A DNA stretch of 64,000 nucleotides from Polyangium sp. 15x6 (GTDB lineage Bacteria > Myxococcota_A > Polyangia > Polyangiales > Polyangiaceae): NCBI RefSeq assembly GCF_029960785.1, contig NZ_JASBQE010000036.1, forward strand, positions 1 through 64,000, read 5' to 3'. The position numbers were made by a program, and so were the translations under genes. Below the pieces are notes generated by a model. That model was not told where the DNA came from. It was given only the letters and a program-made list of their open reading frames with translations, and did no database searches. Each line of letters starts with the position of its first letter. The first letter of the stretch is position 1. This document shows positions 1,856-48,268 of this stretch, piece by piece.

Positions 1856-2200
1856 TGCCTGGATCGGAGCAGGAACACCGAACGCCTGTCAACGCAGCGC
1901 GTGTCTCGCCGCTTTCGACATGGAGGCCTGCTTCGCCACGCGGGCAACCGGGACGCGGCGCGGCGTGGGTTTGTCGACGCGGCGCAGCTCCGCGGTAATG
2001 GCGAGGCTTGGAAGGCAGTGGCGAACCTCTGCGCGGTCGACGGGCTCGACGACGTGGCTCGGGTCGCCGAGGAGCTTGGCTCCACCCAGAAATGAGCAGT
2101 AGGGTCGGGCTCTCTGGGTTTCCCGCGGACGGACGAAAATCGACACGTGCCGGTCGATTTCTTCGATCCAAATTCCTCGGCCGATCATGAAGGGGGGGAC
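1856..2200. other. Divergent intergenic region
   Basis: About 345 bp between the lipoprotein gene (minus) and the sigma factor gene (plus). It must hold both promoters, but no confident -35/-10 pair stands out. The only clear signal is the strong Shine-Dalgarno AGGGGGGG at 2191-2198 ahead of the sigma factor ATG. Short open frames on both strands show no recognisable protein features. Confidence 0.6.
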
Positions 2201-3070
2201 ATGGCGCGTACAACGATTCCCTCTCCGCTCACGACCGAACTGGTCGCGCTTCGTCCCGAGGTGGCACGCATTCTGCAACGTCGCTCGGACGCCCTCGCCA
2301 CCGACAGGATGCAGGAGCTCATGCTGCGGGGGCTCGCGGCGCTGTTCGGCTACACGCCGCACCCCGACGGGGTTCGGCCATGGCTATTCGGCATCGCCAA
2401 GAACCTCCGCAGCGAGGAGAAGCGTCGGGCGCGGCGCGAGCGCGAGCATTTCTGCCCGGACCTCGGCGACGCCGAGCGCACGGCGACGCCGGACGTGTCG
2501 CCGGAGGAAGGGGCTTTTCGTTCCGAGGCTCGCCGCGCGCTTCTATCGGCCTTGAAGACGCTTTCGCCAGAGCAGTTCATCGTGATCGTGCTCGTCGACC
2601 TCGCAGAGTGCACGTGCTCGGAGGCGGCCGAGCTGCTCGACATCCCGCTTGGCACCGTGAAATCACGACTCGCCGCGGCGCGCACGAACATGCTGCGCGC
2701 TCTCGGACCGAAGGAGCAGTACCTCGGCGCCCTGCCGATCGCCCTGTTCCACCGCCGCGCCCTCGCGCGCAGGGTGTTCGACTACGTATACCCGTACGGG
2801 CACTTGCTCCTCGCGTCGCTGTTCTTCGCCCTGTACCGGCCGGTGCGGCCCGAGGCTCCGGCTGTCGCGACCGGCGCTGCCCACGTCATCGGGGCGTCGG
2901 CGGCCGATCTGGTGAGGGCGACCGAGGTCTCGGGCCCGCCGACAAACCTCGCGCCGGTACCTGCGCCGCCGACTCCGCCCGCGCCGAGCGCGGCGTCGCC
3001 TGATCCGTTCGTCGCGAAACCATCGGGGCGAGGACATCGGCCGTTCCGCGGAAAGGGTTGGGCCTGGTAG
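2201..3070 (+). CDS. ECF-type RNA polymerase sigma factor with C-terminal extension
   Basis: 289 residues from the ATG at 2201, chosen because a purine-rich Shine-Dalgarno sits 2-9 nt upstream; a GTG at 2147 is the alternative. Residues ~30-75 match sigma region 2 (MQELMLRG, then PWLFGIAKNLRSEEKRR). Residues ~112-165 match region 4, with the helix-turn-helix CSEAAELLDIPLGTVKSRL. After region 4 a hydrophobic segment (about 190-215, YGHLLLASLFFALY) is followed by a Pro/Ala-rich tail, which is not part of a normal ECF factor and suggests membrane tethering or a partner-binding extension. No anti-sigma gene is adjacent; the next gene is a PEGA-domain envelope protein 28 nt downstream, a plausible co-transcribed target. 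Confidence 0.85.
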   Translation: MARTTIPSPLTTELVALRPEVARILQRRSDALATDRMQELMLRGLAALFGYTPHPDGVRPWLFGIAKNLRSEEKRRARREREHFCPDLGDAERTATPDVSPEEGAFRSEARRALLSALKTLSPEQFIVIVLVDLAECTCSEAAELLDIPLGTVKSRLAAARTNMLRALGPKEQYLGALPIALFHRRALARRVFDYVYPYGHLLLASLFFALYRPVRPEAPAVATGAAHVIGASAADLVRATEVSGPPTNLAPVPAPPTPPAPSAASPDPFVAKPSGRGHRPFRGKGWAW

Positions 3071-3098: not shown

Positions 3099-4340
3099 GT
3101 GGAGATGCTCCGCCTCGGCCTCGTACCGGTTCTCCTCTGTGGACTCGCATCGCCCGCATGGGCAGACGCGCCGATCGACAAGGAGGAGGACGAAGAGAGC
3201 GCGGAGGACATGCGCTTCCGCGCGTTCGCGTCGCTGGGGGATCGCGAGCGGGCCGCGGGCCATCCCCGCGCGGCGGCGAGGGCCTACATGGCTGCGCTCG
3301 AGGTCCGCTCCGATCCGCTCATTGGCGGGCGGCTCGGCGTCCTGTTCGTGCAGCTTGGCCGGCCCGAGCTTGCTCCCGAGCTTTTGCTCGACGCGATCCA
3401 TCGCGCGACCACGTCGCCGAAGGAGCGTGAAGGGTTCTTCCAGGCGCACGAAGCGGCGCGCGCACAAGGATCTTGGATAGAGCTCATCGTGTCGCACGCG
3501 GGCGCGGCGGTGACGCTCGACGGCGAGCCTGCGGACACGGGGGGGCACACCGCGTCCTGGTTCTTCGTGCGCGCGGGCGAGCACGAGGTGCGCGCGAAGC
3601 TCGACGGGTACGAGGAGGCCGTCGAGAAGTTCACGGCGGTCAAGGGCGAAAACCGGCCGGTTCGGATCACGCTCAAACCGCAATCGGCGCCGCCCCCGGC
3701 CGTGCCGGCGGTGTATGAGCCGGAGAAGGATCCGCCGAAGATCGTGGCCCCCACGGTGGTGGTCGGCGAGACGAAGCTCTCGAAGCAGGAGGACCCGTAC
3801 GCGTACGACGACAGTCCGGCGACGAACCGAGGCGACGGAGAGAAGAAAGGGGTGCGGGGCTCGATTGGCGCGGGGCCGGTCGTGGTGTTTGGTGTGGCGT
3901 CGTGGATGCCCGCGGTGGGATTGGCCGTGGGGGCGAGCTTGTGGCCGAGCGAGTACGTATCCCTGGGGATTGAGGGGCGCGCCGCGTGGCTGACGACGGC
4001 GGTCGGCGGGGAACCGATCAGCGCGATGACCGCTGGCGGAATCGCGAGCGTGTGCGGACACTACAGATGGTTCTTCGGCTGCGCGCTCGGGCACCTCGGC
4101 GTGATCAACGTTGACTTCTCGTCGCAGAGCTACAAGCCAGCAAGCTTCGTGAATTTCAAGCCGGGAGCGGGCGGACGCCTCGGCGCCCGCGTCCGTGTAA
4201 CACCGTCTTTCTCGCTAAATTCGTCCGCCGATGTCCTCGGATTGTCGAGTGGCCTGAAAATCGTCGCGGGCGAAACGGTCTTGGCGGAGCAGCCTCCCGT
4301 CATGATCACGGCTCAATTTGTAGGCGTTTGGGAGTTTTGA
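3099..4340 (+). CDS. Exported TPR-like / PEGA-domain protein with C-terminal barrel-like region
   Basis: 413 residues from GTG 3099 (ATG at 3105 is equally possible). An N-terminal signal peptide ends near AWA-DA (residue ~22). Residues ~35-125 are helical and TPR-like (ERAAGHPRAAARAYMAALE). Residues ~127-195 fit a PEGA domain, an extracytoplasmic beta-sandwich (AAVTLDGEPAD, GEHEVRAKLDGYE). A Pro-rich linker leads to ~250-413, where alternating glycine/hydrophobic strands ending in phenylalanine (VGVWEF) look like an outer-membrane barrel fold. It sits between a sigma factor gene and a lipoprotein gene whose ATG begins 2 nt after its stop, so the three probably form one operon serving the envelope. 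Exact function is unknown. Confidence 0.75.
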   Translation: MEMLRLGLVPVLLCGLASPAWADAPIDKEEDEESAEDMRFRAFASLGDRERAAGHPRAAARAYMAALEVRSDPLIGGRLGVLFVQLGRPELAPELLLDAIHRATTSPKEREGFFQAHEAARAQGSWIELIVSHAGAAVTLDGEPADTGGHTASWFFVRAGEHEVRAKLDGYEEAVEKFTAVKGENRPVRITLKPQSAPPPAVPAVYEPEKDPPKIVAPTVVVGETKLSKQEDPYAYDDSPATNRGDGEKKGVRGSIGAGPVVVFGVASWMPAVGLAVGASLWPSEYVSLGIEGRAAWLTTAVGGEPISAMTAGGIASVCGHYRWFFGCALGHLGVINVDFSSQSYKPASFVNFKPGAGGRLGARVRVTPSFSLNSSADVLGLSSGLKIVAGETVLAEQPPVMITAQFVGVWEF

Positions 4341-4342
4341 CC

Positions 4343-5539
4343 ATGCGAATTGCCTCGCTTTTACCTCTCGTGTCCATCCTCGGCCTGGCTGTCGTTGAAG
4401 CCTGCTCGGCGCCACCTTCTTACAATCGTGGCGAGTGCGACCCGGAGGCGCTGGAACCCTCTCCCGCATGTCGCTCCGACGCCGGCGCCGACGCCGACGC
4501 CGACGCCGGCGGCGGGTCCGACGAGCCGGACGCGGCTCAGGCCACGTGCAGCGACGGCCTGGGGCGCTGCGTCCCCGAGCCGAGCAGCGAGTCCGCTGGG
4601 GACTGGCCGCGCACGACGATGCTGCTCTGGTACGGGCCGCGTGAGCTTGCGCCCGCGAACTGCGACGAGGCGCGCAAGCTGGGCGGCTACGGCGACGACG
4701 TGGAGTTCTTCGAGAAGTACCGACGCTTCGCGTACCTCGACGCGCCGCCTGCGGCATGCGAGTGCTCGTGTCCGGCCTCGGAAGGTTCGTGCACCAAGCT
4801 CCCCGAGACGATCGAGGTCCGTGCTGGCACGTGCGCGGAGAACGGAGCCCCCGCGCTCCCTTTCGGAGGTCCCGCCGGCTGGGACGGCTCGTGCACGAGC
4901 GCGAACGCCCTGCCGGCGGGGGCTGATTGTGGTGGCGAGCCGTGCGCGCAATCCGTTTACGCTTCTCCGCTGCCTGGCCCAACGAGCGAGGCTTGCCCGT
5001 CGATCACGAAGCCGGCCGCGTTTACCAAGACCACGGACTGGCGCTGGATAGGCCTCGCCTGCGAGGCGAAGGAGCGCGAGGGGAGATGCGAGACGTCCAC
5101 GCACCGTTGCATGTACGACCTGCCTTACCCGTTTCTCCAGTGCGTCGCGCTCCGGGGGATACACGCCAAGTGCCCCGGCAACTACGACCGATATGACCCC
5201 ATCTACCTCTACGGCGAGGTGCCCATCGATACGCGCGGCTGCACGACGTGCGAGTGCGGGGGAAGCCCGGTCGGGAGCGGGTGCATCGGAAACCTACGGT
5301 TTTACAGCGATGGCGCATGCACCGTTGGGGCGAATACGGTGGACGTGGCATCCTTCGACGAGCAGTGCACGAACGTCTTCCCGCCGGGCCGAGCACTCGG
5401 AAGCAAAGCCATCACGGACCTTGCGTACATCCCCGGCCTCTGCCTCGCGACGGGCGGAGAGCCCACTGGCGCAGCCTCGGAAGACTTCGCCGACGCCGTG
5501 ACGTTCTGCTGCCTCCCGCCGTTCGAGTTCGCCGAGTAG
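4343..5539 (+). CDS. Cys-rich lipoprotein, unknown function
   Basis: 398 residues from the ATG at 4343, two nt after the stop of the PEGA gene; this start gives a clean signal peptide with a Cys near residue 21 (VVEACS). A low-complexity Asp/Ala linker (DAGADADADAGG) follows. The rest is rich in paired cysteines (CECSCPA, CTTCECGG, final FCCLPPFEFAE), which suggests a disulfide-stabilised domain on the cell surface or in the periplasm. I recognise no enzyme motif. It is the last gene of the sigma factor operon, so it is likely expressed under that factor. Calls beyond secreted lipoprotein would be speculation. Confidence 0.75.
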   Translation: MRIASLLPLVSILGLAVVEACSAPPSYNRGECDPEALEPSPACRSDAGADADADAGGGSDEPDAAQATCSDGLGRCVPEPSSESAGDWPRTTMLLWYGPRELAPANCDEARKLGGYGDDVEFFEKYRRFAYLDAPPAACECSCPASEGSCTKLPETIEVRAGTCAENGAPALPFGGPAGWDGSCTSANALPAGADCGGEPCAQSVYASPLPGPTSEACPSITKPAAFTKTTDWRWIGLACEAKEREGRCETSTHRCMYDLPYPFLQCVALRGIHAKCPGNYDRYDPIYLYGEVPIDTRGCTTCECGGSPVGSGCIGNLRFYSDGACTVGANTVDVASFDEQCTNVFPPGRALGSKAITDLAYIPGLCLATGGEPTGAASEDFADAVTFCCLPPFEFAE

Positions 5540-5676
5540 TCAAAGCTCCCACCTATTTTTCACGTTCGTCGATCCGAATCGCCTCCTCGATCATGTAGCG
5601 CAGGTGAGGGGCGAGACTCGGACCTCCGGCGAACGCGCGCCTGGCTAAACCGAGGGCTCGACGCTCGTCCCTTCTG

Positions 5677-5738
5677 CCCGAGCCGAACACGGTCCTCCTG
5701 GCCTCGTATAACGAAAAGGCGCCGTGTTCGGCCTCGGG
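5677..5738. repeat. Long stem-loop 1
   Basis: Arms 5677-5692 (CCCGAGCCGAACACGG) and 5722-5738 are complementary except for one bulged base in the right arm, with a 29-nt loop. It lies 137 bp after the Cys-rich lipoprotein gene; the absence of a T-run argues against a simple terminator. Its loop size resembles that of the two related elements downstream but its sequence does not. Confidence 0.6.
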
Positions 5739-5751
5739 CGGGTTCTCCACG

Positions 5752-5836
5752 AAACGACCCGCAGGGGAGGGCGATGGGGGCGCGCGCGTCTGGGCAAGCA
5801 CCTCTCGCCTCCATCGTCCTCTCCTGCGGGTCGTTT
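5752..5836 (+). repeat. Covarying hairpin repeat, copy 1
   Basis: Left arm 5752-5780 pairs along all 29 positions with right arm 5808-5836. Three pairs are G.T, all with G in the left arm, so they are wobble pairs in a plus-strand transcript but C.A mismatches in a minus-strand one. The 27-nt loop (5781-5807, starting CGCGCGCGTC) is nearly identical to that of copy 2. The outer stem differs from copy 2 by paired compensatory changes, which suggests selection on an RNA or single-strand structure. Confidence 0.75.
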
Positions 5837-6034
5837 GTCCCTGCTCTTGCTACGATGTGCGCTTTCGAAAAAGCGAGAGCGCGCCCATTGACCGGAGTGC
5901 CGACAAGGCGGTTTTTCTCGGCCCGTCTCCCGGAAACCGGGTGGGTGACTCGAGTTCGTGGATCCGGTGTAGACGCGCTCTCTGACGCTTACGTTTGTCC
6001 AAGGACGGGTGTCCTGTCAAGCCAAACTTTTCAC

Positions 6035-6113
6035 CGACCGGCAGAAGAGGGCGATGGGGGCGCGCGCGTTTGGGCAAGCACCTCTCGCCTCCATCGTCCT
6101 CTTCTGCCGGTCG
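6035..6113 (+). repeat. Covarying hairpin repeat, copy 2
   Basis: Left arm 6035-6060 pairs along all 26 positions with right arm 6088-6113, with two G.T wobble pairs. The loop 6061-6087 differs from copy 1 at one base. Relative to copy 1, pair 5760/5828 C-G becomes 6040/6108 G-C, pair 5765/5823 G-C becomes 6045/6103 A-T, and pair 5766/5822 G.T becomes 6046/6102 A-T. Copy 2 lies 280 bp downstream of copy 1 in the same orientation. Confidence 0.75.
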
Positions 6114-6116
6114 TTC

Positions 6117-6200
6117 GTCACCGTTCCGAGGCGGCTGCGCCGCGCGGCGTTTCCCCATACGCGCACGCTTCACGCGACGCAGCCGCCTCGGGTCGGTGAC
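6117..6200. repeat. Long stem-loop just upstream of the 6217 gene
   Basis: Arms 6117-6139 and 6178-6200 are each 23 nt; 21 pairs are Watson-Crick, one is a T.G wobble and one a mismatch. The loop is 38 nt. The right arm ends 6 nt before the Shine-Dalgarno (TGGAGG, about 6206-6211) of the gene at 6217, so in a transcript it would form the 5' leader structure and could affect translation. Confidence 0.6.
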
Positions 6201-6216
6201 TTTCCTGGAGGTAACG

Positions 6217-6846
6217 ATGCGCGCCGCACCGCACATGGCTATGGATGACGATGACGTCGCGACGACCGTGATGACCCGCTTTGCGCTTCCGCCGCAGAGC
6301 GGGACACGCCCCAGCCTCGCGCATTCCGAGCCGCCGCGCGACAGCGTCGTGGACACGCCGTCGGCGTGGAGCCGTGCCCATGCCGCGCTCGGGGCCGCGC
6401 TCCGCAGCGTGCGCGAGCGCTTCCGCAAGGCCCGCCTCGCTGACCGCCTACCCCCGCTCCCACCACCGCGGTCCATGACGGCGACCCGCGTCTCGGTAGG
6501 CGCCGTGGCGCATGACGAACGCGGCGAGCAGCTCCTCCTCGACATCATGCGCGCGGCGCGGCCCTACCAGGACGCCGCGGTGTACGTTGCGAACTACGCG
6601 GCGGTACTCCGGAAGCTCGGGGACGACGCGTATGCCGAGGGGCTCCTGCACTTCGCGCTCTCGCGCATGCGGCCGGATGCCGAGGGGTTCGTCTCCATCG
6701 CACGTTTGCGAGACCGCCTTCCCGAATTGTCGTATTCGGGGACGCTCGTGTCGGCGCTGACTCGGTTGGAGGCCGCTGGGATTGTGGCGCTCACGGGAAC
6801 GACGGAGGGGGGCACGACGCGCGTGCTCCTTCGGGTTCCCTTGTGA
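6217..6846 (+). CDS. Small protein with winged-helix-like C-terminus
   Basis: 209 residues from the ATG at 6217, which has a GGAGG-type Shine-Dalgarno; the frame stays open upstream into the hairpin region but without a credible start. I recognise no named family. The N-terminal ~90 residues are polar and Pro-rich, probably disordered. From ~105 the protein is helical (EQLLLDIMRAARPYQDAAVY). The last ~60 residues (SIARLRDRLPELSYSGTLV, then TRLEAAGIVALTG and a final beta pair) read like a winged-helix fold, so a DNA-binding role is possible. The 5' leader contains a large stem-loop, hinting at post-transcriptional control. Confidence 0.6.
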   Translation: MRAAPHMAMDDDDVATTVMTRFALPPQSGTRPSLAHSEPPRDSVVDTPSAWSRAHAALGAALRSVRERFRKARLADRLPPLPPPRSMTATRVSVGAVAHDERGEQLLLDIMRAARPYQDAAVYVANYAAVLRKLGDDAYAEGLLHFALSRMRPDAEGFVSIARLRDRLPELSYSGTLVSALTRLEAAGIVALTGTTEGGTTRVLLRVPL

Positions 6847-6913
6847 TCAAGCTGCGGTCGCGATGCTGCGGTAAGGTCGGGCCATCCTTGCCGTTCGAGA
6901 CCGTCGCCCGCCC

Positions 6914-8011
6914 TCACTTCCAGGCAGGCGGCGTCATCCCGAGCTTGTTGTAGAAAAACTTCGCCGCCGTCCGCGAGAGCTGATCCTTCGGCTCGTACAC
7001 GTCCGGCCCGCGCGGCAAGAGCCCCGCCGACAGCGACCCGAGCCGCTTGCCCATGAGCCGCTCGACGTCGTCGCAGAACGCCTCCATCGTCGAATACCGG
7101 TCCTCGGGTTTCTTGCGCAGCGCCTTCAGGATCACGCCCTCCGTGGCCCGATCGATCCCCGGCTGCGCCTCCGAGGGCTCGCGCGGCGGCATGATGAGCT
7201 GCCTCGCCAGGAGGACCGCATAATCGTCCGCGCGGAACGGCAGCTCCCCGGTCAGCATGCGATACATCATCACCCCGAGCGCATACACGTCCGACCGCGG
7301 ATCCGACTTGTCCCCCACCACCTGCTCGGGCGGCATGTATTCGGGCGTCCCCACGGCCACCCCGGCCTGCGTGACCGCCTTGGCGGCCTCGAGCTTGGAC
7401 AAACCAAAATCCAGCACCTTCGTGTTGTAAGGCTCGCCCGGCTCGCCGACCAGAAACACATTGTCCGGCTTCACGTCCCGATGCACGATCCCCGCGCGGT
7501 GCGCCACCCCGAGCGCCGAGGCCGTCTGCGAGAGCACCGGGAGCGCGAGGTGGAGCGGCATCGTCGTCTCGCGACGCAGCCAGTCCCCGAGCGTCTCGCC
7601 GAAGAGATATTCCATCACGAGGAAAGGCACGCCGTCCGGCCGCTCCCCCGTATCGAGCACCTTCACGATATTGGGATGCGCGAGCGCGTTCGCCGCCTTC
7701 GCCTCGCGATCGAAGCGAGCGCGCGCGCCGGGCGCGCGGAGGTGCAGCGAGTCGAGCATCTTGATGGCGACCGGCTCGCTCGTGTTCCGATCGAGCGCCA
7801 GATAGATCCGGGCCATGCCCCCCCGACCGATGAGCCCCCGCACCTCGTAGCGCCCGCCGAGCACCACGCCCGTCTCGGGCGTGGGTTTGGCGCGGAGCGA
7901 CGAGACGTCCGGCGTCGCGACGAGCTTCGTGCCGTCGTACGGACAGAAGCGGTGCTCTTCATCCTCGAAACGCCTGAGACAACGCGAGCAATACATCGGT
8001 CCCCGTCCCAT
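6914..8011 (-). CDS. Ser/Thr protein kinase with N-terminal zinc-ribbon-like motif
   Basis: 365 residues (an internal ATG at 7996 is an alternative start). The N-terminus carries a zinc-ribbon-like CSRC...FCPYDGTKL (three cysteines seen). The kinase domain spans about residues 50-320 with all key motifs: glycine loop GRGGMARIY, Lys in VAIKM, catalytic HRDVKPDN (about 176), DFG (about 200) and PEYMPPEQ. No transmembrane segment or sensor domain follows, only a short C-terminal tail, so this is a soluble eukaryote-like kinase as is common in myxobacteria. Its start lies 8 nt downstream of a cytochrome-like lipoprotein gene, which suggests co-transcription. Substrates cannot be read from sequence. 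Confidence 0.9.
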   Translation of the reverse strand: MGRGPMYCSRCLRRFEDEEHRFCPYDGTKLVATPDVSSLRAKPTPETGVVLGGRYEVRGLIGRGGMARIYLALDRNTSEPVAIKMLDSLHLRAPGARARFDREAKAANALAHPNIVKVLDTGERPDGVPFLVMEYLFGETLGDWLRRETTMPLHLALPVLSQTASALGVAHRAGIVHRDVKPDNVFLVGEPGEPYNTKVLDFGLSKLEAAKAVTQAGVAVGTPEYMPPEQVVGDKSDPRSDVYALGVMMYRMLTGELPFRADDYAVLLARQLIMPPREPSEAQPGIDRATEGVILKALRKKPEDRYSTMEAFCDDVERLMGKRLGSLSAGLLPRGPDVYEPKDQLSRTAAKFFYNKLGMTPPAWK

Positions 8012-22057: not shown

Positions 22058-22673
22058 TGGGACCCTGTTCGTTGCGGTAGGGTGACGATGGGAGCGTGGG
22101 TGGGACGCGCGCGTCCCGTCGTCCTTGGGCGATGCTCGCGCATCCCGAGCGAGGCTGCCATGCAACATCGTCGCTCGATTCCGCGGGCAAGGTCCGGGAC
22201 CTCGTCGGCCTGATCCGACGACCTCGTGGAGAAGGTCGGCGAAGTCGTCGAGACGGTCGGCGAAGTCGTCGAGACGGTCGGCGACCTCGTCGGTTGGTCC
22301 AACGACCTCGTCGAGACGGTCGGCGACGTCGTCGAGAAGGTCGGCGAAGTCGTCGACCTGGTACGACGACCTCGTGGAGAAGGTCGGCGACCTCGTCGAG
22401 ACGGTCGGCGACCTCGTCGGTTGGTCCAACGACCTCGTCGAGACGGTCGGCGAAGTCGTCGACCTGGTACGACGACTTCATCCAGAAGGTCGACGACGTC
22501 GTCGAGAAGGTCGGCGAAGTCGTCGTCCTGGTACGACGATCTCGTCGAGCTGGTCCGACGACCTCGTCCACGAGCGCGACGGGAAAGCCCCGCCTATCGG
22601 CGGCTCGAATGTGCGGGACGACGGGCCCTCGTGGCATGGCCCCTGCGGAGGGCCGCACCCCGGGAGGAACCTG
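22058..22673. other. Divergent intergenic region dominated by 21-bp repeats
   Basis: 616 bp between two divergent lipoprotein genes. About 360 bp are the tandem 21-bp repeats described separately. The remainder holds the two presumed promoters (not identifiable) and a GGAGG ahead of the right-hand gene. Confidence 0.7.
22214..22570. repeat. Degenerate 21-bp tandem repeat array in three frame-shifted blocks
   Basis: Units of the type GAGACGGTCGGCGAAGTCGT-C repeat head to tail. Read on the plus strand they encode heptads such as ETVGEVV and ETVGDLV. The marker CTGGTACGACGA occurs at 22358, 22464 and 22528; the spacings 106 and 64 bp equal 5x21+1 and 3x21+1, so each block shifts the reading frame by one. 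No single frame spans the array and no start site is associated. Confidence 0.75.
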
Positions 22674-45928: not shown

Positions 45929-45959
45929 GACCTGAGCCCGTCCCCTGACCTGATCGAGG

Positions 45960-46132
45960 CGCGCGGGAGGCGTGTCACGCCCGGGGGTGGTAGGTCCTGT
46001 TGTCTGAGGGGTCGCTCTGCGACCCCGAGTTCGGGGGAACCACCCCGCGCGTGACACGCCTCCCGCGCGCCGATCGTCCCGTCCGAAGCTCACCGTCCCC
46101 GGCTCCCCGAGCCCCGACAAAAAACCCGCTCG
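45960..46132. repeat. Long palindromic repeat, copy 1 (left flank of toxin cassette)
   Basis: Perfect 21-bp outer arms at 45960-45980 and 46049-46069; an inner hairpin GGGGTCGC/GCGACCCC at 46008-46026. The segment 45983-46132 recurs almost unchanged at 48086-48237 in the same orientation, including the stretch to the right of the palindrome that ends GACAAAAAACCCGCTCG. Confidence 0.9.
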
Positions 46133-46208
46133 CGTTCCGGGGCGCATCGTGAGCCCCTCTGGTTCGCTTGCCTTGCCGCCTGCCGGTCGGCGTGCGATTC
46201 GGTCGGCC

Positions 46209-48052: not shown

Positions 48053-48080
48053 AGACCGGCCCCTGGGATAAAGAACCGCA

Positions 48081-48237
48081 CGCGCGGGGGTGGTGGGTCC
48101 TGTTGTCTGAGGGGTCGCCCTGCGACCCCGAGTTCGGGGGAACCACCCCCGCGCGTGACACGCCTCCCGCGCGCCGATCGTCCAGTCCGAAGCTCACCGT
48201 CCCCGGCTCCCCTGAGCCCCGACAAAAAACCCGCTCG
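48081..48237. repeat. Long repeat, copy 2 (right flank of toxin cassette)
   Basis: 48086-48237 matches 45983-46132 with a handful of substitutions and small indels. The far-left palindrome arm of copy 1 is missing here; shorter arms (CGCGCGGGGGTGGT and complement) remain around the same inner hairpin (48111-48129). Confidence 0.9.
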
Positions 48238-48268
48238 CCGGAAACTCCCACCTTGACGCGACACGCGT

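Follow-up and report, generated by a model that had tools for sequence, protein, structure and literature searches.

The spacer between the genes that we call LIPO and DDD, in a 64-kb stretch of Polyangium DNA which was analysed as a whole and is here termed the window, carries long hairpins in the order C-A1-M-A2-B within 677 nt (Table 1). Comparison of the copies of this array leads us to conclude that its hairpins are probably a genus-restricted family of intercistronic or leader RNA hairpins, and suggests that in these Polyangium spacers it is the fold of the messenger RNA that has been kept in evolution. We regard it as highly probable that the array is transcribed and that its structure is under selection. 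That the LIPO-DDD spacer would be a tandem array of long hairpins acting in RNA, as processing or end-protection elements, is a more tentative reading to which we give somewhat less than even weight. Intercistronic and leader RNA hairpins are known as a kind; as far as we have searched, a clamp-and-loop family of them in paralogous operons is new. Searches of PMC open-licence full texts yielded nothing on this array, nor RNA work on such elements in Polyangium. The array offers a clean case of long intercistronic hairpins which have diverged in sequence while keeping their pairing and, often, a constant position ahead of the ribosome site. If the reading is true, it shows how each member of a large family of myxobacterial paralogues could be controlled separately through its mRNA.

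Table 1. Hairpin array of the LIPO-DDD spacer and the genes around it (window coordinates)
Feature	Position	Strand	Description
ECF-type sigma factor gene	2147..3070	+	upstream of PEGA gene
PEGA-domain protein gene	3099..4340	+	overlaps LIPO start
LIPO	4328..5539	+	403 aa, Cys-rich, paralogous in the genus
Hairpin C	5670..5745	+	left neighbour of A1; from BLAST and fold
Hairpin A1	5752..5836	+	arms 5752-5782/5806-5836, 31 nt, 90% complementary, 23-nt loop
Module M	5868..5985	+	conserved folded stretch separating A1 from A2
Hairpin A2	6035..6113	+	arms 6035-6062/6086-6113, 28 nt, 93% complementary, 23 nt between
Hairpin B	6117..6200	+	28-30-nt arms; ends 16 nt 5' of the DDD ATG
Shine-Dalgarno-like GGAGG of DDD	6207..6211	+	read from sequence
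DDD gene	6217..6846	+	209 aa; genus-only in the genomes searched

LIPO is lipoprotein-like, judging from its N-terminus, and at the thresholds applied neither LIPO nor DDD matches a Pfam or NCBIfam family. There is no tRNA in the spacer, and hairpin B ends 6 nt before the GGAGG. An earlier, sequence-only reading of the window had described A1 and A2 as a two-copy element with a shared 27-nt loop. Both hairpins were found as inverted-repeat arms at the positions which it had given, and the shared loop stood, the loops being identical except for one base, but not its size, as 23 nt lie between the arms. The pair changes on which that reading had rested its case for a conserved structure were all present: C-G at 5760/5828 corresponds to G-C at 6040/6108, G-C at 5765/5823 corresponds to A-T at 6045/6103, the G-T pair at 5766/5822 of the first copy has no mismatched counterpart in the second, and every non-Watson-Crick pair (three in copy 1, two in copy 2) places G in the left arm and T in the right. 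Folded as RNA, the plus strand of A1 reached -72.5 kcal/mol (z -8.2) and its minus strand -59.7 (z -5.9), while the corresponding values for A2 were -62.6 (z -7.2) and -56.9 (z -6.6); not one of 200 shuffles folded as well, for either hairpin on either strand. On a strand-neutral hairpin score A1, A2 and B obtained 27.4, 25.6 and 23.9, respectively, and they are among the 13 hairpins of the window that score at least 16. Another genome of the genus, used as background, yielded 20 such hairpins in 400 kb (twenty 20-kb stretches), which amounts to about one per 20 kb; three of the 20 score at least 23.9, all of them long and repeat-like, and several of the 20 look repeat-like by eye. Since background hairpins with scores as high as those of A1, A2 and B are rare, their origin by chance is excluded. 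No Rfam family matched the window at its gathering score (0 matches), in agreement with the earlier remark that no named family has this loop; the matches below gathering are mostly to microRNA-precursor models, a likeness shared by long hairpins in general.

The description as a two-copy element had to be given up. A covariance model of A was built from 42 copies, the alignment leaving out the half copies of A at loci L037 and L150, and L203. Among the best 150 of 14,521 candidates scored in the window's own genome, this model placed A at 10 sites with E < 1e-13, and one further match was at chance level (E 1.85). When the model was run against a sample of 60 genomes of the family, three were matched, which are the three members of the genus in that sample. 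A DNA search of 59 genomes gave matches with E up to 0.01 in 20 of them, strong only in the six of the genus, namely the window's own and the five others included in the search. Neither search gave a strong match to A outside the genus, and the weak matches in 14 genomes outside it (best 1.8e-4, over 27 bases) we take as chance. As many as 40 of the 42 copies share their strand with at least one of the ECF sigma, PEGA, LIPO and DDD families in the fetched locus, the two others (L035 and L148) having none of the four nearby, and the best-scoring strand of the model is the operon strand at all nine testable own-genome places (best 150 of 14,521 candidates). A palindrome dispersed over the genome was rejected, nine of the 10 own-genome places found among those best 150 candidates lying in one operon family. 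Of the 42 copies, 27 precede a DDD that enters the leader counts given below; for the other 15 the next 0.7-1.5 kb contain no credible DDD, and LIPO accompanies 12 of them on the same strand. It is therefore with the operon family, more than with DDD by itself, that the array is associated.

The earlier reading had made further copies its own check, and copies with compensatory changes were found in the A alignment (42 rows, 30 pairs), which we compared with 500 column shuffles. In A, 88.4% of the cells are paired against 85.4% in the shuffles, 39 cells against 18.9 are changed on both sides, and the covariation score is 0.193 against 0.145; none of the 500 shuffles attained any of these three values, which are to be read as non-independent counts, the copies of A being related by descent. 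Two other measures were near the shuffles and not clearly raised, namely the number of pairs changed on both sides (11 against 8.3, equalled in 43 of 500 shuffles) and the number of pair types (39 against 36.6, in 80 of 500). Structures slid by +2 and +3 gave 12 and 11 double-changed pairs against the 11 observed, at lower scores of at most 0.132. For B (17 rows) 92.0% of the cells are paired, compared with 85.7% in shuffles, and 30 cells are changed on both sides, compared with 12.7 (0 of 500, as also for the covariation score), while the double-changed pairs numbered 7 against 5.0 (52 of 500) and the pair types 18 against 15.0 (20 of 500). Thus, by the cells and the score, pairing is conserved beyond sequence in both A and B. 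The earlier contention that structure and not sequence is conserved holds in its first half, the pairing being kept, but not in its second, as the TGGG loop and much of the A stem are conserved in sequence.

Counting sense G-U pairs against A-C mismatches separates selection at the RNA level from correction of palindromes, and we made this count in hairpins that had been found with equal weights for both. All hairpins together gave 254 G-U and 96 A-C. Taking one hairpin, the first, from every cluster (33 clusters) gave 99 and 38. The binomial p of 1.9e-7 treats cells as independent and is only a guide, because the copies share a common ancestry and clustering at 80% similarity does not make the clusters wholly independent. 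Twenty-six of the clusters lean to G-U, three to A-C, and four are even. The large B cluster alone is without strand bias (15 G-U, 15 A-C), and in A a single column holds 17 of the 34 A-C cells. The unpaired linkers show little strand skew (AT skew -0.02, GC skew -0.02), which gives no sign of a mutation process biased by strand; the fourfold sites of DDD have T over A, 660 against 504. The plus-strand, or transcript, reading that had been proposed from the two window copies is thus favoured by a G-U excess in many copies, as well as by the covariation scores on A and B.

The same counts bear on a different account, which we consider unlikely, namely that the hairpins are DNA palindromes kept near-perfect by template switching during replication (quasipalindrome correction) and spread by duplication of the operons, with no function in RNA. 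Template switching is reported to homogenise the arms of inverted repeats (PMC7202029, PMC8604942). The operons are indeed duplicated and rearranged, and their arrays vary: the order C-A-B is found at L085-L088, L093, L099 and L109, and C-A-M at L145 and L148, while shortened arrays at L034, L037 and L144 are broken within hairpins. Unequal recombination between A copies would interconvert such orders, for instance by turning C-A1-M-A2-B into the C-A-B found elsewhere, and this too would fit the account, as does the B cluster without strand bias. Palindrome correction gives no reason, however, for G-U to exceed A-C on the operon strand, and it is disfavoured because the 99:38 excess, with so little skew in the linkers, is not what it predicts. 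A G-G mismatch beside CAG, which persists in 14 of the 42 A copies, and the TGGG loop, invariant in 42 of 42, also speak against arms and loops that are simply kept as palindromes.

Selection on the folded RNA, which we prefer, concerns an array whose parts are found elsewhere in the genus. Besides the window, module M occurs at L034, L138, L145, L147 and L148 with 79-95% identity to the window copy, several of these copies having an outer GGAGGGCGCG/CGCGCCCTCC-like stem; its six copies are spread over five of the six genomes of the genus, the sixth having a less close match of 72% (L091), and it is absent from the 24 other genomes searched. At L138 (G003:C117) LIPO and hairpin A are retained, B is reduced to its tail and, by eye, a few DDD-like codons follow directly, so that this is possibly a decaying copy.

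Related hairpins in the same spacers have a common YCGCAG/CTG(G/C)GG-like clamp and different stems. Such a clamp, in which a left-hand YCGCAG faces a right-hand CTG(G/C)GG, or one closely similar to it, is carried by 50 of 86 strand-neutrally scored hairpins, and these 50 fall into 11 stem clusters, in 5 of whose representatives a G-G mismatch lies inside the clamp. Their own arms pair at 11.1 of 12 inner positions, compared with 6.6 for swapped arms, a contrast that shows differing stems and not selection, because the hairpins had been chosen for pairing. The pattern CGCAG-N(40-69)-CTGGGGNCG is not enriched in the window's own genome, where it has 37 matches and the reversed pattern 81, and among 30 of the 37 there were three true clamp hairpins, one at the known locus on C111 and two on C223. 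The latter two are adjacent (G000:C223, about 73.1-73.3 kb, L268) and are followed, by eye, by a terminator-like stem and a further hairpin; a distant LIPO relative lies about 2 kb away from this array, which has no credible DDD. In the diverged spacers of L104, L110, L113-L115, L117, L118 and L120, a hairpin with CCCTTCCCGGG-type arms and then a close T run stand between LIPO and DDD.

Relatives of DDD were found in 6 of the 59 genomes searched, all of the window's genus, with 7 to 14 matches in each and 68 in total, 7 of which, weak or fragmentary, were left out of the loci; likewise, among named genomes the DDD alignment scan gave 15 loci, all from Polyangium (P. fumosum, sp. 6x1 and sp. 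y55x31). Leaders were counted at 50 of 58 DDD loci, eight (L116, L119, L121, L125, L129, L132, L136 and L137) having been dropped for want of a clear start codon. The last hairpin ends 10-40 nt 5' of the assigned start codon in 26 of these 50 leaders, where the start codons were hand-picked from candidates, several diverged ones being doubtful and L122 being a broken gene. At least one hairpin of score 15 or more (the cut-off used for leaders, that for the background being 16) lies within 600 nt in 42 of the 50, which are paralogues and orthologues and not independent. The nearest upstream gene among the other three families is LIPO at 34 loci and ECF at 5, with none in the fetched stretch at 11, and the array is therefore not dependent on one upstream gene. 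Two possible relations to the ribosome site were rejected. Hairpins that keep the Shine-Dalgarno sequence open did not explain the arrangement, as the predicted opening, computed for 26 of the 50 leaders, was no better than with shuffled upstream sequence (above the shuffled mean in 16 and below it in 10; means 0.38 and 0.32 shuffled). In the window group loop A could pair with the Shine-Dalgarno sequence (ACCTC/GAGGT), but inspection by eye showed no covarying change.

The closeness of the hairpins to DDD in those 26 leaders would also be expected if they were its regulatory target, a winged-helix-like C-terminal part of DDD binding the palindromes, as DNA operator or as mRNA leader, and feeding back on its own expression. 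This part is modelled as helix-helix-strand-strand, winged-helix-like, and weakly matches PadR/MarR winged helices (best 5zi8_A, E 0.024), with no structural match of E up to 0.001; confidence in the model is low (mean pLDDT 59; residues 131-190 about 78). With 15 of the 42 A copies lacking a DDD, a DDD-specific role is therefore not general. Usual operators, moreover, are unlike 30-bp stems with 23-nt loops, and on the whole we think it unlikely that DDD is the reader of these elements.

Intercistronic and 5'-leader hairpins that direct processing or stabilise messages are familiar as RNase III sites and ompA-type leaders. The Polyangium hairpins resemble these in that long stems separate genes which probably belong to one transcription unit and often directly precede a ribosome site; by inverted repeat and fold, a long near-perfect stem is present in A1 and A2. 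They differ in that several hairpins, alike in clamp and loop motif, make up an array which is repeated in paralogous operons of one genus, and their cleavage is hypothetical. RNase III-type processing or mRNA end protection would be the likeliest mechanism, a putative one to which we lean with clear reserve. The near-perfect stems of 28-31 bp would then have two tasks between the cistrons, processing and the protection of ends. At A and C, RNase III cutting double-stranded RNA, or a block to exonucleases, would separate the ECF-PEGA-LIPO message from that of DDD, whose 5' end would be capped just before its ribosome site by the last hairpin (B, or one of A type in arrays that lack B). The two messages could thereby decay and be translated independently.

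A role as transcription terminators or attenuators appears decidedly unlikely. The eight loci of the diverged group (range L104-L120) do have, by eye, a GC-rich stem followed by a run of 4-7 T, as such a role would require, but in the window no run of at least four T directly follows A1, A2 or B (by eye), and a scan for intrinsic terminators (GC stem plus T run), which allows only short loops of 3-8, found 0 sites in 5400-6950, where shuffles had a mean of 1.4. A further idea, which is a long shot, is that the clamp hairpins (YCGCAG ... CTG(G/C)GG, the A type with a TGGG loop) might be a new RNA recognition family linking the paralogous Polyangium lipoprotein operons, in which one protein, perhaps DDD, or loop-loop contacts between paralogous leaders would read the shared loop and set which copies are expressed.

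REP/BIME elements, with their RAYT proteins, are likewise extragenic palindromes in mosaic arrays. REPs are described as 20-40 bp long, usually present in over 100 copies per genome and tagged by GTAG or CGTC, whereas the Polyangium hairpins are about 80-120 nt long, occupy 10 A places (best 150 of 14,521 candidates) and are bound to operons. An origin by REP/RAYT was rejected on the low copy number and on the sole Y1_Tnp match of the window's own genome, which is partial and lies on a contig, C74, that has no A copy. A mobile REP-like or MITE-like hairpin element of any kind is very improbable: the hairpins are multi-copy, extragenic, palindromic and mosaic as it would be, but nine of the 10 A places among the best 150 candidates lie in one operon family, no strong match occurs outside the genus, and that single partial Y1 transposase match is the only one in the window's own genome. 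Stem loops are also found beside multi-copy lipoprotein genes in Borrelia (PMC2775950); those are described as IS605-specific, in which they differ from the Polyangium hairpins, whose own-genome transposase match stands on a contig apart from A.

The window contains other repeats. A 160-nt repeat occurs at 45976-46133 and 48079-48238, the two copies being 96% identical; a long inverted repeat (45958-46071) surrounds the first copy, and two partial relatives are present elsewhere in the genome. Tandem repeats of a TCGTCGA-rich stretch occupy 22189-22568.
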